Of a stretch of 64,000 nucleotides of DNA, positions 33,263 to 61,932 are shown piece by piece. Positions within the stretch are counted from its first letter, which is position 1, and every line of letters starts with the position of its first letter. The position numbers were made by a program, and so were the translations under genes. Below the pieces are notes generated by a model. That model was not told the DNA's origin. It did not search any database and was given only the letters and a program-made list of their open reading frames with translations. This stretch comes from Clostridia bacterium (GTDB lineage: Bacteria > Bacillota > Clostridia > Christensenellales > UBA1242), in NCBI GenBank assembly GCA_017453125.1, contig JAFTKS010000019.1:1-64000 (forward strand), in the 5' to 3' direction.

Positions 33263-33418
33263 ATGGCAAGTAGAAAATGTGATTGTACAACCAGAAAGTC
33301 AGCTTCAACTAGTAGAAAGTCTTCTAGTAGAAAAGCTGAGGCTAGTACAGATAATGCAAAAACTTCTAGTAGAACTTCAGCAAAGCAAACTTCTAGTAGA
33401 ACAAGAAATTGTAACTAA
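33263..33418 (+). CDS. Ser/Thr/Arg/Lys-rich protamine-like 51-residue peptide
   Basis: The ATG follows an exact AGGAGGTG, one of the strongest ribosome sites in the window, so I take the gene as real. The peptide contains almost only Ser, Thr, Arg, Lys and Ala, with repeated SSR and TSSR units (TSRKSSSRK, TSSRTSAKQTSSRTR). It has no hydrophobic segment, and has Cys near both ends (RKCDC and RNCN). This composition resembles protamines and spore-coat or spore-core basic proteins. A nucleic-acid-binding or spore role is inference. It lies just upstream of the tRNA-Val/Gly pair. Confidence 0.65.
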   Translation: MASRKCDCTTRKSASTSRKSSSRKAEASTDNAKTSSRTSAKQTSSRTRNCN

Positions 33419-33548
33419 TTAGCCTAGTTTCACATTAAACCTTAAATATTTCATTTGTGCATTTGTAGACTTTATCATTGCAAAATAAAATGTTTAAGGT
33501 TTTTTATTTTTTATTTTAAAAAATTTTTAAAAAAGTTATGAAAAAGGG

Positions 33549-33577
33549 TTGCATCTTTTTGAAAATAGTGGTATATT
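33549..33577 (+). promoter_or_regulatory. Promoter of the tRNA-Val/tRNA-Gly pair
   Basis: TTGCAT at 33549-33554 and TATATT at 33572-33577 with a 17-bp spacer, about 33 bp before the tRNA-Val. Between the preceding gene and this promoter (33436-33512) there is a long-loop hairpin ending AAGGTTTTTT that probably terminates the small basic-protein gene. Confidence 0.65.
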
Positions 33578-33610
33578 AATAGAGTACTTGAAAGGAAGTA
33601 CGTTAAATGT

Positions 33611-33686
33611 GGGGGTTTAGCTCAGCTGGGAGAGCATCTGCCTTACAAGCAGGAGGTCATAGGTTCGAGCCCTATAACCCCCACCA
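33611..33686 (+). tRNA. tRNA-Val (anticodon TAC)
   Basis: The 76-nt gene folds as a full cloverleaf. Acceptor GGGGGTT pairs with AACCCCC, the anticodon loop is CTTACAA, the T arm holds GGTTCGAGCC, and CCA is encoded. It lies 11 bp upstream of tRNA-Gly. Confidence 0.97.
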
Positions 33687-33697
33687 TTTTATTATTT

Positions 33698-33772
33698 GCG
33701 GGAGTGGCTCAGTGGTAGAGCGTCGCCTTGCCAAGGCGAATGTCGCGAGTTCGAATCTCGTCTTCCGCTCCA
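33698..33772 (+). tRNA. tRNA-Gly (anticodon GCC)
   Basis: The 75-nt gene folds as a full cloverleaf. Acceptor GCGGGAG pairs with CTTCCGC (one G-U), the anticodon stem-loop is GCCTTGCCAAGGC, the T arm is GCGAGTTCGAATCTCGT, and CCA is encoded. Its 3' end is the founder of the tandem array that follows directly. Confidence 0.97.
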
Positions 33773-34297
33773 ATCTAAGACCTCGTGTGAGGTCTTTTTT
33801 TTTCGCTTAATGACGAGATTCTATAGACTAACGTCTATATATCTACGATATGAACTCGCTAATTCGCGTGTGCTCGTTTTTACAAAACGAGGGCGATCGC
33901 AAGCTTTTGATAAAATCTTGCTCGGCAACGAACACGTCTTCCGCTCCAATCTAAGACCTCGTGTGAGGTCTTTTTTTTCGCTTAATGACGAGATTCTATA
34001 GACTAACGTCTATATATCTACGATATGAACTCGTTAATTCGCGTGTACTCGTTTTTGCAAAACGAGGGCGTTCGCAAGCTTTTGATAAAATCTTGCTCGG
34101 CAACGAACACGTCTTCCGCTCCAATCTAAGACCTCGAATGAGGTCTTTTTTTTGCTTGATGACGAGATTCTATAGACTAACGTCTATATATCTACGATAT
34201 GAACTCGCTAATTCGCGTGTACTCGTTTTTGCAAAACGAGGGCGTTCGCAAGCTTTTGATAAAATCTCGCTCGGCGACGAACACGTCTTCCGCTCCA
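33773..34297 (+). repeat. Tandem array of three ~175-bp units carrying tRNA-Gly fragments
   Basis: The units span 33773-33948 (176 bp), 33949-34123 (175) and 34124-34297 (174) and are about 95% alike. Each starts with ATCTAAGACCTCG and a terminator hairpin (AGACCTC/GAGGTCT plus Ts). Next come GACGAGATTC, about 30 nt containing the hairpin TATAGAC-TAAC-GTCTATA, and GAACTCGC. A second hairpin CTCGTTTT/AAAACGAG follows, and the unit ends with a copy of the tRNA-Gly 3' end, CGTCTTCCGCTCCA. The two flanking pieces are exactly the two halves of the antisense tRNA-Gly T arm (GACGAGATTCGAACTCGC), split by the hairpin insert. A decayed fourth unit start follows at 34298. Confidence 0.93.
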
Positions 34298-34334
34298 ATC
34301 TAAAACTTTTAATTAGTATTTTATGTAAAGTAAA

Positions 34335-34366
34335 AAAACACCTAGATTTTACACACTAGGTGTTTT
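34335..34366. terminator. Bidirectional terminator at the end of the tRNA-Gly array
   Basis: AAAACACCTAG (34335-34345) pairs perfectly with CTAGGTGTTTT (34356-34366). It lies between the array and the convergent hypothetical gene. Confidence 0.82.
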
Positions 34367-34377
34367 GTGTTTGAAAT

Positions 34378-35031
34378 TCAATTGATTTGACGTTCGGGAT
34401 TGATGATAAAGTGGTTTATATTTAGTTGCAGGTAATCGTGTGGACTTTGTATTAAATTTCCGCATTCATCTAAGTATGTTGGGAGATTTTGCATTGTAGC
34501 AAATATTTTTATGCTTATTGGATTTCTTTCAGATATTAAGTTGTTGATAGCTTGTTGTAAAAATTTATTTTCTGTATTGTCTAGAAAAAAGTTTATCTCA
34601 AATTTTCCATATTTTTTGTAGCATCTAGTAATTTCAAAAGGCATTGGGCAATCTGTATGTAATTCAATTATTTTTTTGAAATTATTTTCATTAAATGCTT
34701 GAATATGTTCTTCTCTTGATTGTATTTGTGTAGGATATAAATTTAATTGTTGGTAAATCTTTAGCATAATAAGAGATGTTATATAGTCTCTAGCTAGGAT
34801 TTTTTTATGGAAATCATCAGAACAATTATCAAGAGTTTTCTCAATTACGATTTCGTTATTTTTATTAATATAAATATTTATAGGTTTTATGTTGTTATCG
34901 GGCGATGACAAGCATTCTTTTGCGGTAATTAAAAAATCTTTTGGGCAACTTGTAGTGATAAAGTTGTCCTTGGTTTTTCCGCAAGTTAGATAGTTTTCTA
35001 TAAAATAATTGTTTATTTCTTCTCTTTTCAT
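34378..35031 (-). CDS. Hypothetical 217-residue protein
   Basis: A soluble protein starting KREEINNYFIENYLTCGKTKDNF, with mixed alpha/beta character and no signal peptide or membrane segment. Cys residues occur near 17, 29, 40, 69, 125 and 133. The ribosome site is poor. It is a lone gene between the two tRNA loci, read toward the tRNA-Gly array. The family is not recognised. Confidence 0.65.
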   Translation of the reverse strand: MKREEINNYFIENYLTCGKTKDNFITTSCPKDFLITAKECLSSPDNNIKPINIYINKNNEIVIEKTLDNCSDDFHKKILARDYITSLIMLKIYQQLNLYPTQIQSREEHIQAFNENNFKKIIELHTDCPMPFEITRCYKKYGKFEINFFLDNTENKFLQQAINNLISERNPISIKIFATMQNLPTYLDECGNLIQSPHDYLQLNINHFIINPERQIN

Positions 35032-35179
35032 ATTTTAATTTTAACATATGTTTAGTTATTTGTGAATACCAATTTTTAATTTTTTTCGTTGTTATAATTT
35101 GTCAATAATTATAATTTTTGGTAATATTAAAGTAAGCAAATATATTCATTTATTTGCTATAAAATTGGGGGAGAAGACT

Positions 35180-35575
35180 ATGAATAAAGAAATACCTACG
35201 CTAATTGAATTAATTGAACAAGCATCTGAGGCGAATAAATTGCTAATCTCTAATGCGATTGCTATGGAGTGTGGGGATTTAGCTAAGGCTCAGAAATATA
35301 TTAAAGAGGCATCGTCTTTAATTGATACAATGATAAAAGATGTATTTATAGAAGTGAAAGAAGTTGTATCTGTTGATATTGATGATCTTGAAGACTATGA
35401 TATGTCTATTTTGGATATATCAAAACTATTAGCAAAAATAACTAGCAATGCATCTAGTTTGATTGAATGTTATATTAATGAATTTTCGGAATCTGTAAGG
35501 GTAAATACTGAAAAGAAATTAGTCAAATGTATTAACGCAACTAAAGAGTTGGCATTGTCTTTGCTGTTAAATTAG
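35180..35575 (+). CDS. Hypothetical helical protein, 131 residues
   Basis: An all-helical, acidic protein (IPTLIELIEQASEANKLL; DLAKAQKYIKEASSLIDTM) with heptad-like leucine and isoleucine spacing and no membrane segment. I start it at the ATG at 35180 because GGGGGAG is just upstream; the frame is open earlier but without support. It lies immediately before the tRNA-Cys/Leu promoter. The family is not recognised. Confidence 0.65.
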   Translation: MNKEIPTLIELIEQASEANKLLISNAIAMECGDLAKAQKYIKEASSLIDTMIKDVFIEVKEVVSVDIDDLEDYDMSILDISKLLAKITSNASSLIECYINEFSESVRVNTEKKLVKCINATKELALSLLLN

Positions 35576-35671
35576 ACGTTATTTTAAATATTTATATTAA
35601 CAAAGTAGGAATATTTTGCATATAAAATTATCATAATATAAAATTCTAAGTAAAATTTTTTTAACAAACAC

Positions 35672-35700
35672 TTTACTTATCTTATTTTATGTGATATACT
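35672..35700 (+). promoter_or_regulatory. Promoter of the tRNA-Cys/tRNA-Leu pair
   Basis: TTTACT at 35672-35677 and TATACT at 35695-35700 with a 17-bp spacer, 16 bp before tRNA-Cys. Confidence 0.7.
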
Positions 35701-35716
35701 TACTTTGTTAATTTAT

Positions 35717-35791
35717 GGCACCATAGCCAAGCGGTAAGGCCCGGGTCTGCAAAACCCTCATGCCTCAGTTCGAATCTGAGTGGTGCCTCCA
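35717..35791 (+). tRNA. tRNA-Cys (anticodon GCA)
   Basis: The 75-nt gene: acceptor GGCACCA pairs with TGGTGCC, anticodon loop TCTGCAA, T arm CAGTTCGAATCTG, CCA encoded. It precedes tRNA-Leu by 47 bp. Confidence 0.97.
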
Positions 35792-35838
35792 TTTGTATGA
35801 GCATATCTTCCAATTTGAAAGTTATGCTCATAAGTTTT

Positions 35839-35925
35839 GCTGGTGTGGCGAAATCGGCAGACGCACAGGACTTAAAATCCTGCGGTGTAACAACCGTACC
35901 AGTTCAAGTCTGGTCACCAGCACCA
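35839..35925 (+). tRNA. tRNA-Leu (anticodon TAA)
   Basis: The 87-nt class II tRNA: acceptor GCTGGTG pairs with CACCAGC, anticodon loop CTTAAAA, a variable arm (CGGTGTAACAACCG), T arm CCAGTTCAAGTCTGG, CCA encoded. Its 3' end is repeated in the array that follows. Confidence 0.97.
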
Positions 35926-36291
35926 AAAATGCGAACGATAAGTTCGCTTTTTTTGTTTCAGTGACCAGTATGTGCAACGCACATTTTTTTCTAACGAAAA
36001 AACTTGAACAGTATTCGTCGCATACCAGTACAAGTACTTATGCTCCGAAATTACTCATTTTATTCGTAAGGCAAGTCGTGGTCACCAGCACCAAAATGCG
36101 AACGATAAGTTCTCTTTTTTTGTTTCAGTGACCAGTATGTGCAACGCACATTTTTTTTAACAAAAAACTTGAACAGTATTCGTCGCATACCAGTACAAGC
36201 ACTTATGCTCCGAAATTACTCATTTTATTCGTAAGGCAAGTCGTGGTCATCAGCACCAAAAATGCGAACGATAAGTTCGCTTTTTTTGTTT
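35926..36291 (+). repeat. Tandem array of two ~167-bp units plus a partial one, carrying tRNA-Leu fragments
   Basis: The units span 35926-36093 (168 bp) and 36094-36258 (165 bp); a third copy of the first 33 bp (terminator) ends near 36291. Each unit starts with the terminator GCGAAC-GATAA-GTTCGC and Ts. GTGACCAG follows, then a 34-nt insert with hairpin ATGTGC-AAC-GCACAT and Ts, then CTTGAAC, a T-arm-like TACCAGTACAAGTAC, and finally a copy of the tRNA-Leu 3' end (TGGTCACCAGCACCA; last unit TGGTCATCAGCACCA). GTGACCAG and CTTGAAC are the two parts of the antisense tRNA-Leu T arm. The layout matches the tRNA-Gly array although the sequences are unrelated. Confidence 0.93.
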
Positions 36292-36420
36292 TTGTTCAGG
36301 AATTTGGATAAGTGTTAATGATTTTTTATAAATTTAATTATTAATGATTGTAATGAATCTATTTTATATGGTAAAGGTAGTATATTCCTTTTTTCATTTT
36401 TAATATGTCTTAATCTTTGT

Positions 36421-59992: not shown

Positions 59993-61932
59993 TTAGTACC
60001 ATCAACAAAAACATAACAATCTTGAGAAGTTGAATTACCATACAAGTAATAAACTTTATTATTTATGGTACAAATAGAGCCATAAAAAATAGAACTAGCG
60101 TTATTTAAATTAACTTTAACCCAAGTTTCAGTTTCTTTATCTAACATATAATTTAAATCTTTTTTATTAGAAGAAAGATAGATATTATCACCGTCTGACC
60201 ATAATACAGTACCCATAGAAGAATTAACACCATTCCAAACTTTGGTATACCAAGTAAGTGTATTTTTATCTAATATATAATGGGTTTGTCCATTTGAATA
60301 ATAAGTATTTTCTCCATCTGACCAAATATGCGCAGCATTAATTGGAGTAAAACCATTAAACGTAACAACATTCCAAGTTCTAGTAGATTTATCTAAAATA
60401 TATTGATTAGAATTTAGAGATAAATAATAATTTTCCCCATCTGACCATACATAACCAGCCCTAAAAGAACTTACGCCATAAAAAGTAACTTCGTTCCAAG
60501 TATCAGTAGATTTATCTAAAATATATTGTTTTGAGTTATTAGAATAAAAAACATTATCTCCGTCAGACCATATATACAAACCAATTATATAAGAATACCC
60601 ATACCATTGTTTTTGTTTCCAAGTATTAGTTTCTTTATCTAAATAATAATTTACTTCTCCATTAGAAAAATAATCAATTCCGTCATAATTCCAAAAAGAA
60701 TTATAACTAATACCATTTTCAAACTTTGGTAAACCAACAAATTCGGTTGCTATATCAACTTGATAAAAACCATATTGTAACTCAAATATAGCATAAAAAT
60801 TTGTATTATTATTTATAGAATAAGAAGATAAATCAATAACATTTACACCGTCAACAGACCAACCAATAAAATCATAACCCGATTTAGTTGGAATAGTTGG
60901 AACAACTACATAATTATCATTAACAACAAATTGAGAATTATAAATTTCATTATCTACAACAAAATTAACTAAATATTTATTCGTTACATCTGCAACAATT
61001 TTAACATTTGAAGTAATTTGATATGTATTTAAATCAATTTGTTCACCGTTTACAGTCCAGTAGTTAAAGATTACATAATCAGTAGAAGTTGGATTTACAA
61101 CAGATACTGTATCATTTTTATTTACAATTTGAATATTGTAAACACTACCGTCAAATTCAAAAGTTACAACAACTTGATTATCGTTTTCAAAATTAGCAAT
61201 AAATTCTTCATAATAAGAAATAGAAGATTGAAGTTCTGCAATTTTATTGTTTAAAATAGAAACATTTGAAGAATTAGCAGATACTTGTGTAGTTAAAATA
61301 GAAATTTGATAATTTAAACTATCAATTTGAATATTTAAATCTTCTATAATGCTATTATATAAATTATTTGTATTATTCAGTTGAGTAATAGTACTCTGTA
61401 AATCAGTAATTTGATAAGAATAATTTTCAATAAGTTTATCTTTATATTCAATCACTAAACCACTATTTGTAACAGTATTTTCCAAATTAACAATCTGTGT
61501 ATTTAAATTAGAAATTTGTTTATTTAAATTAGATATTGTATTTTCATTATTTGTTTTAATAGTAGATAAATTATCTACTTGTTCTTCTAAACTAACTTTT
61601 TGATTTTCTAAATTAGTAATTTGTTGTGTATAATCTTTATTACTATTAGTTAATAATGTAACTTGACTATTAAGTTGACTAATTTGATCAGTTTGAGCAG
61701 TTATAGTATCTCTATAACTATCAATTAATTCAGTATAAGATTTTTCATTATCTAGTGCAGTAGAATAGCCGTCTTTATAAGCATTATCAACGTCATCTTT
61801 AGTATATACACCAGTTCCAGATAATCCGTCTTGTACTTTGTTAAAGTTAATAATACCCCAAGACAAAACGAAAGCAAAAGCACCAATAAATAAAATACTA
61901 AATATTATACTTAATACTTTTTTTGTTTCCAT
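59989..61932 (-). CDS. Virion tip/adhesin-like protein: coiled-coil stalk, two InlB-type repeats, six-blade propeller-like domain
   Basis: The 647-residue protein has an N-terminal membrane span (about 7-28). A coiled coil (about 60-250) consists almost entirely of repeated Ile/Leu/Asn/Gln heptads with SQLNSQV and NKQISNLNTQI. Two Listeria-Bacteroides repeats follow (about 254-316 and 321-383; each ends with a WTVNG or WSVDG then ANV/YAIF-type strand). Six repeats of about 42 residues (about 410-647) then have the core WSDG(E/D)NxYxS…YxLDKxTxTW, resembling Kelch-type blades. This fits an attachment protein in the place of pIII. AAGGAGAAATT precedes the ATG. Binding to a host surface target is inferred. 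Confidence 0.72.
   Translation of the reverse strand: METKKVLSIIFSILFIGAFAFVLSWGIINFNKVQDGLSGTGVYTKDDVDNAYKDGYSTALDNEKSYTELIDSYRDTITAQTDQISQLNSQVTLLTNSNKDYTQQITNLENQKVSLEEQVDNLSTIKTNNENTISNLNKQISNLNTQIVNLENTVTNSGLVIEYKDKLIENYSYQITDLQSTITQLNNTNNLYNSIIEDLNIQIDSLNYQISILTTQVSANSSNVSILNNKIAELQSSISYYEEFIANFENDNQVVVTFEFDGSVYNIQIVNKNDTVSVVNPTSTDYVIFNYWTVNGEQIDLNTYQITSNVKIVADVTNKYLVNFVVDNEIYNSQFVVNDNYVVVPTIPTKSGYDFIGWSVDGVNVIDLSSYSINNNTNFYAIFELQYGFYQVDIATEFVGLPKFENGISYNSFWNYDGIDYFSNGEVNYYLDKETNTWKQKQWYGYSYIIGLYIWSDGDNVFYSNNSKQYILDKSTDTWNEVTFYGVSSFRAGYVWSDGENYYLSLNSNQYILDKSTRTWNVVTFNGFTPINAAHIWSDGENTYYSNGQTHYILDKNTLTWYTKVWNGVNSSMGTVLWSDGDNIYLSSNKKDLNYMLDKETETWVKVNLNNASSIFYGSICTINNKVYYLYGNSTSQDCYVFVDGTK

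Follow-up and report, generated by a model that had tools for sequence, protein, structure and literature searches.

What are the tandem units that trail a tRNA-Gly gene in this clostridial DNA, each of them closing with the 3' end of that very gene, and how did they come to be there? The stretch analysed (64,000 nucleotides; hereafter, the window) is contig 16 of G000, a genome of 1.35 Mb that comprises 22 contigs and is 99.7% complete. The named close relatives of this genome are uncultured Clostridia from metagenomes of rumen and gut. The original prediction described three tandem units of ~175 bp behind tRNA-Gly, each ending in the last 14 bases of the tRNA and each carrying its own terminator, and this description was confirmed. 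A second array, absent from that prediction, was found behind tRNA-Leu(taa), ~1.5 kb beyond the Gly array (35905–36291, period 165). The features of both arrays are as follows.

33611–33686: tRNA-Val, upstream of tRNA-Gly
33698–33772, + strand: tRNA-Gly(gcc), the functional gene (ARAGORN; Rfam RF00005, 70.8 bits)
33773–33948, + strand: Gly array unit 1, 176 nt (repeat search, BLAST)
33777–33804, + strand: intrinsic terminator after tRNA-Gly, an 8-pair stem followed by a T-run; again at 33953 and 34128
33812–33821, + strand: first antisense arm of Gly unit 1, GACGAGATTC, the reverse complement of tRNA-Gly GAATCTCGTC, exact over 10 nt
33822–33851, + strand: hairpin(s) of Gly unit 1 between the antisense arms, at the T-loop position (sequence, fold)
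33852–33859, + strand: second antisense arm of Gly unit 1, GAACTCGC, the reverse complement of tRNA-Gly GCGAGTTC (sequence)
33866–33932, + strand: class B hairpin core of Gly unit 1 (covariance model R1); also 34041–34107 and 34215–34281
33935–33948, + strand: copy of the last 14 nt of tRNA-Gly (sequence); also 34110–34123 and 34284–34297
33949–34123, + strand: Gly array unit 2, 175 nt, 97% identity with unit 1
34124–34297, + strand: Gly array unit 3, 174 nt, 94% identity with unit 1
35839–35925, + strand: tRNA-Leu(taa), the functional gene of the Leu array
35926–36093, + strand: Leu array unit 1, 168 nt, with a terminator at 35931
35961–35968, + strand: antisense arm GTGACCAG of tRNA-Leu, 8 nt exact, at the expected place
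36094–36258, + strand: Leu array unit 2, 165 nt
36259–36291, + strand: right flank of the Leu array, with a terminator in common with the units

Anatomy of the units

The three Gly units were 90–97% identical to one another (TRF score 1011), and the terminal CGTCTTCCGCTCCA of tRNA-Gly was copied at the end of each with zero mismatches; by our own estimate, the probability of a chance 14-mer match within 0.5 kb is about 1e-6 or less. An intrinsic terminator opens each Gly unit, none follows the last copy of the tRNA-Gly end, and the region 33500–36400 contained 12 terminator-like sites compared with 1.4 expected. The antisense arm GACGAGATTC is fully complementary to the functional tRNA (GAATCTCGTC) and not to the array's copy of it (GAACACGTC). 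The Gly units folded more stably than their shuffled counterparts on both the sense and antisense strands (z of -3.1 and -4.0, respectively), and their cores matched covariance model R1, which was trained partly on these same cores, with E of 5e-16 to 6e-17.

Most of the units found behind tRNA genes share a common order. From the CCA onward, a typical unit consists of a terminator, often CGCTTAAT, an antisense T-arm, a sense T-arm with the core, and the tRNA 3' end; the antisense T-arm is usually interrupted near the T-loop by two hairpins, and the hairpin core sits in the loop of the sense T-arm. Across 57 distinct first units, exact copying of the tRNA end most commonly started at position 61 (18 units) or 56 (13 units), and the longest antisense match averaged 9.5 nt to the unit's own tRNA versus 6.2 nt to other tRNAs, with the own-tRNA match exceeding all controls in 33 of the 57. 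For Ile and for one Ser, the antisense part fits the anticodon arm, not the T-arm. Units were also found on the 5' side of tRNA genes, where they carry the tRNA 5' end as far as the D-loop together with an inverted piece of the D-arm. The CCA-like ends of the units are simply encoded tRNA 3' ends.

Two other features of the window were recorded: a reading frame of 51 aa (MASRKCDCTTRKSAS...), rich in Ser, Arg, and Lys and with a ribosome-binding-like site, directly upstream of tRNA-Val (33264–33418), and a diverged ~123-bp tandem repeat, apparently within a coding region (60300–60583).

Recurrence among tRNA genes, genomes and core classes

Copies of a tRNA gene's own end were counted in G000 and three relatives of the same genus, at a criterion of at least 12 of 14 bases and a distance of at most 800 nt from the gene. 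The tRNA genes trailed by their own 3' end numbered 10 of 36 in G000 and 4 of 35, 9 of 34, and 10 of 30 in the relatives, and those preceded by their own 5' end numbered 3, 1, 5, and 2 in the same four genomes. The corresponding 3' and 5' counts in a complete genome from another genus of the family were 1 and 2 of 32, respectively. Arrays thus follow other tRNAs in the window (Leu) and across the genus, where the original prediction had proposed to look for them, so the lack of conservation under which it would have seen only an inert duplication is not what we found. The presence of an array at a given tRNA varies by species, the Gly array occurring in G000, G006, and G012 and not in G005. 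At one locus of G006 (L025, 4883–5026), two units of 66 nt lie before tRNA-Gly and repeat its 5' end as far as the D-arm.

The cores sort into a few classes, to which we gave letters of our own (B and C). One class can occur at different tRNAs within one genome, the same tRNA carries different classes in different species, and where a core recurs at different tRNAs, the arms fit the local tRNA. In G000, class B was found in the Gly array and behind tRNA-Ser(cga), while the Gly and Leu arrays of G006 have one core in common that is distinct from class B. A class B covariance model trained on the G000 and G012 copies retrieved additional copies in G003, G007, and G009. Four new copies lay behind tRNA-Ser(cga), tRNA-Thr(cgt) (in two genomes), and tRNA-Gln(ctg), every one closing with the 3' end of the tRNA that it follows, and the four weakest matches (E above 1e-4) had no adjoining tRNA; given this distribution of matches, class B is largely restricted to the genus.

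Class C, first encountered behind tRNA-Asn, was detected within the family in 113 of 309 genomes and 25 of 42 genera, and elsewhere in the order in 52 sampled genomes from other families. Inside the family, it mostly adjoins a tRNA gene (Asn, Leu, Arg, Ile, Met, Trp, Ser, and others), whereas several copies in other families had no tRNA gene within a 1.3-kb stretch. Such copies include loci L267–L270 and L274, that at L268 being embedded in a GTCATTGCGAGCG-type palindromic repeat. In stem P3 of class C, changes on both sides were observed in 8 of 9 pairs (84 such cells, compared with 20 in shuffles), and pairing reached 94%, compared with 38–49% when the alignment was slid; the linkers GCTTTGGCT and TTAACGCGTCGC were nearly invariant. 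No Rfam family fitted the units in the window and 8 related loci, and class C is a real structured motif outside Rfam.

The arrays also bear marks of turnover. The tRNA-end copy at the far end of an array often has a terminator other than that of the functional gene. At tRNA-Asn, the terminators have exchanged positions between species. G012 has at its far end a terminator like the first one of G000, and as its first terminator one like that at the far end in G005. The Asn array of G012 contains two unrelated units of different classes. This exchange, together with the mixed array, is the pattern expected if units had entered one after another at the end next to the tRNA; it supports such entries without proving them, because recombination across repeats can shuffle terminators too.

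Possible origins of the arrays

The data show the anatomy, boundaries, sharing of classes between tRNAs, presence and absence between relatives, terminator exchange, and covariation; that the units move by insertion we infer. The reading that we prefer, to which we assign an even chance of being right, is that the arrays consist of small, non-coding, structured cassettes, which insert into the loops of tRNAs and restore the end of the gene. Cassettes of ~100–260 bp would be lodged in tRNA-gene loops, in most cases the T-loop, and an array would represent successive copies. Each cassette would bring a tRNA 3' end, from the loop to the CCA, and a terminator, so that the gene would be restored on the left and the old 3' end displaced to the right, much as in the far larger islands that integrate into tRNA genes. 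Its interior would be the antisense T-arm and the sense T-arm opened by the conserved hairpin core, and the cores would move among tRNA genes with their arms rebuilt to fit each new tRNA. Tandem copy number could then shift through recombination between direct repeats. The fold is presumably what a putative mobilising enzyme recognises. We raise more tentatively the wider proposal that these are mobile non-coding cassettes that recognise tRNA loops through structure or through base pairing of the arms, can be retargeted, are moved by a host enzyme or some other one, and have had rtT of Escherichia coli as their only described example.

Searches across unit-bearing genomes for a mobilising enzyme gave no universal candidate. 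The PF01548 transposase of IS110 bridge-RNA elements was absent from G000; reverse transcriptases, including those of retrons, were absent from the unit-bearing G012, G032, and G020; and Y1 transposases (REP/IS200-type) were absent from the unit-bearing G006, G032, G020, and G096. A tyrosine recombinase was rejected as an obligatory mover, as G032 has a two-unit array and no intact one, although one may have acted in the past. G000 itself has two PF00589 genes only, neither of them in the window, and one integrase is located near tRNA-Arg(cct). In the same genome (L026; contig 8, 64658–65197), a Xer-like tyrosine recombinase gene beside miaA and lexA contains one in-frame TAA where the genes of relatives read through, reflecting either a sequencing error or a recent loss. 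Class C had no match in plasmid or phage records; five matches in viral contigs included no unit and resembled unrelated hairpins rich in G+C, distant from tRNAs.

An alternative is that each unit encodes a small structured RNA with a tRNA-like CCA end, which would be processed by tRNA enzymes and act as a regulator or decoy, with selection on the fold. In E. coli, the annotation of RttR ends precisely at the CCA of a unit, and in the clostridia hairpins keep their places while their sequences shift through compensatory substitutions and stable folds occur on the sense and antisense strands, all as such genes would lead one to expect. However, the units of the window lie beyond an intrinsic terminator and each has another, and a terminator before every unit speaks against co-transcription in the manner of tyrT. 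A promoter search yielded only weak consensus matches in an A+T-rich region, and close relatives gain or lack arrays. The evidence on the folding strand is itself in conflict: mismatches in the array hairpins (6 A–C versus 0 G–T) hint at the antisense strand, on which the hairpin loops are also richer in purines, whereas the G–U pairs of class C point to the sense strand. An excess of triloops (56 of 121, compared with 9 of 41 in terminators) was too weak to use as a sign of DNA folding. We therefore regard RNA genes as unlikely, and the 170-nt RNA of the original prediction found no support here, with a strong terminator before the units and one in each unit, no dedicated promoter, and no match to the Rfam RtT model.

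Neutral local duplication, in which slippage or template switching at hairpins copied a 3' end, a terminator, and filler that later expanded in tandem with nothing mobile or functional involved, would fit the 90–97% identity within an array. It would also fit the ~60-bp direct repeats at E. coli lysV, which change copy number without any special enzyme. E. coli chromosomes differ in the lysV unit, having 0, 1, or 2 copies of it between otherwise nearly identical flanks, and ordinary recombination across the direct repeat of 49 to 60 bp that borders the unit is enough to explain this; the polymorphism thus does not demonstrate insertion as such. Yet filler would not be expected to give core classes common to unrelated tRNAs and families, preferred boundaries at positions 56 and 61, or covarying stems. 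Neutral duplication is accordingly improbable, and for class C it is already disfavoured.

Alternatively, the arrays could be scars of integrase-borne islands, left as displaced tRNA fragments after repeated integration and loss. A restored gene with a displaced fragment is a known mark of tRNA-integrating elements (PMC9897764, PMC4383910), which the units share, and G000 has the one integrase near tRNA-Arg(cct) mentioned above. Against this, the interior of the units is a conserved, geneless, structured core of ~100 nt that many tRNAs have in common, the arrays of the window have no integrase within or beside them, and D-loop units on the 5' side occur as well. This explanation is already disfavoured, and we consider it very improbable. 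An assembly artefact of this metagenome-assembled genome, as might be suspected from the split of G000 into 22 contigs with one tRNA at a contig end, is scarcely credible, as the same anatomy in independent assemblies of relatives and in complete E. coli chromosomes refutes it as the source, and only the exact copy number in the window arrays is uncertain on this account.

Comparison with known elements

The cassettes that we propose resemble several known systems in part. Like IS110 bridge-RNA and REP/Y1 elements, the units have target-matching arms or palindromic units near hairpins, but they occur without an IS110 transposase in G000 and without Y1 in several unit-bearing genomes. Like the attC cassettes of integrons, they form arrays of short units whose recognition could, by analogy only, lie in a folded single strand; unlike them, they are geneless and target tRNA loops. 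The likeness to tRNA-integrating islands extends to regeneration of the gene end with displacement of the old end and to positions in the anticodon, T-, and D-loops. The units differ from islands in being two orders of magnitude shorter (100–260 bp), in containing no gene and hence no integrase, in their antisense copy of the target arm and their hairpin core, and in persisting in genomes without an intact tyrosine recombinase.

The closest likeness is to E. coli rtT, which to our knowledge had been a lone oddity of one operon. The original prediction cited it as a precedent, and the architecture bears this out, as tyrT/tyrV, lysV, and the lysT operon follow the same plan, whereas the Rfam RtT model (RF00391) gave no match in the window or at 8 related loci, not even with E relaxed to 5. 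In the positive control, this model recovered 10 matches, covering the tyrosine and lysine units of E. coli; units of the arginine tRNA operon had no match at the gathering score. In strain MG1655, the tyrT–tyrV spacer and the rtT repeats behind tyrV contain an antisense GGGGAAGGAT, a sense AAGGTTCGA, hairpins, and a 19-nt tRNA end, and lysV and lysQ are followed by an antisense GATTCGAACCTGC, a sense GCAGGTT, hairpins, an 18-nt tRNA end, and a terminator. The lysT operon has simpler versions behind its lysine tRNA genes, and others stand in the operon for arginine tRNAs; in both the arginine and the lysine operons, spacers (loci L276 and L278) contain rtT-like pseudo T-arms. This antisense/sense T-arm anatomy was derived here from the E. 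coli units; a search of the literature on rtT found little, and nothing on such an anatomy.

The E. coli repeats are tandem units of 156–178 bp that end in 18–19 nt of their own tRNA 3' end and contain an antisense and then a sense T-arm, the latter with hairpins in its T-loop. The clostridial tandem units likewise each end in their own tRNA 3' end, preceded by the T-arm first in antisense and then in sense orientation, with hairpins at the T-loop. They differ in that their cores belong to other classes, most of their antisense arms are opened by two hairpins, approximately a quarter of tRNA genes are affected, and 5' units with D-arm pieces exist. A terminator precedes every unit in the window, a further difference from rtT that lysV and lysQ of E. 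coli nevertheless share with the window. The clostridial units are rtT-like in architecture and outside Rfam RtT as defined by its model. The plan that they share with E. coli rtT suggests a widespread kind of tRNA-tied repeat; found at many tRNAs of an uncultured clostridial genus, with a core that extends across an order, and at the lysine and arginine tRNAs of E. coli, it turns rtT into a general phenomenon. The origin of rtT-like repeats is now open to comparative testing, for which a defined fold and preferred boundaries are available, and annotators should be aware that repeats of a tRNA end are not necessarily the scars of islands.
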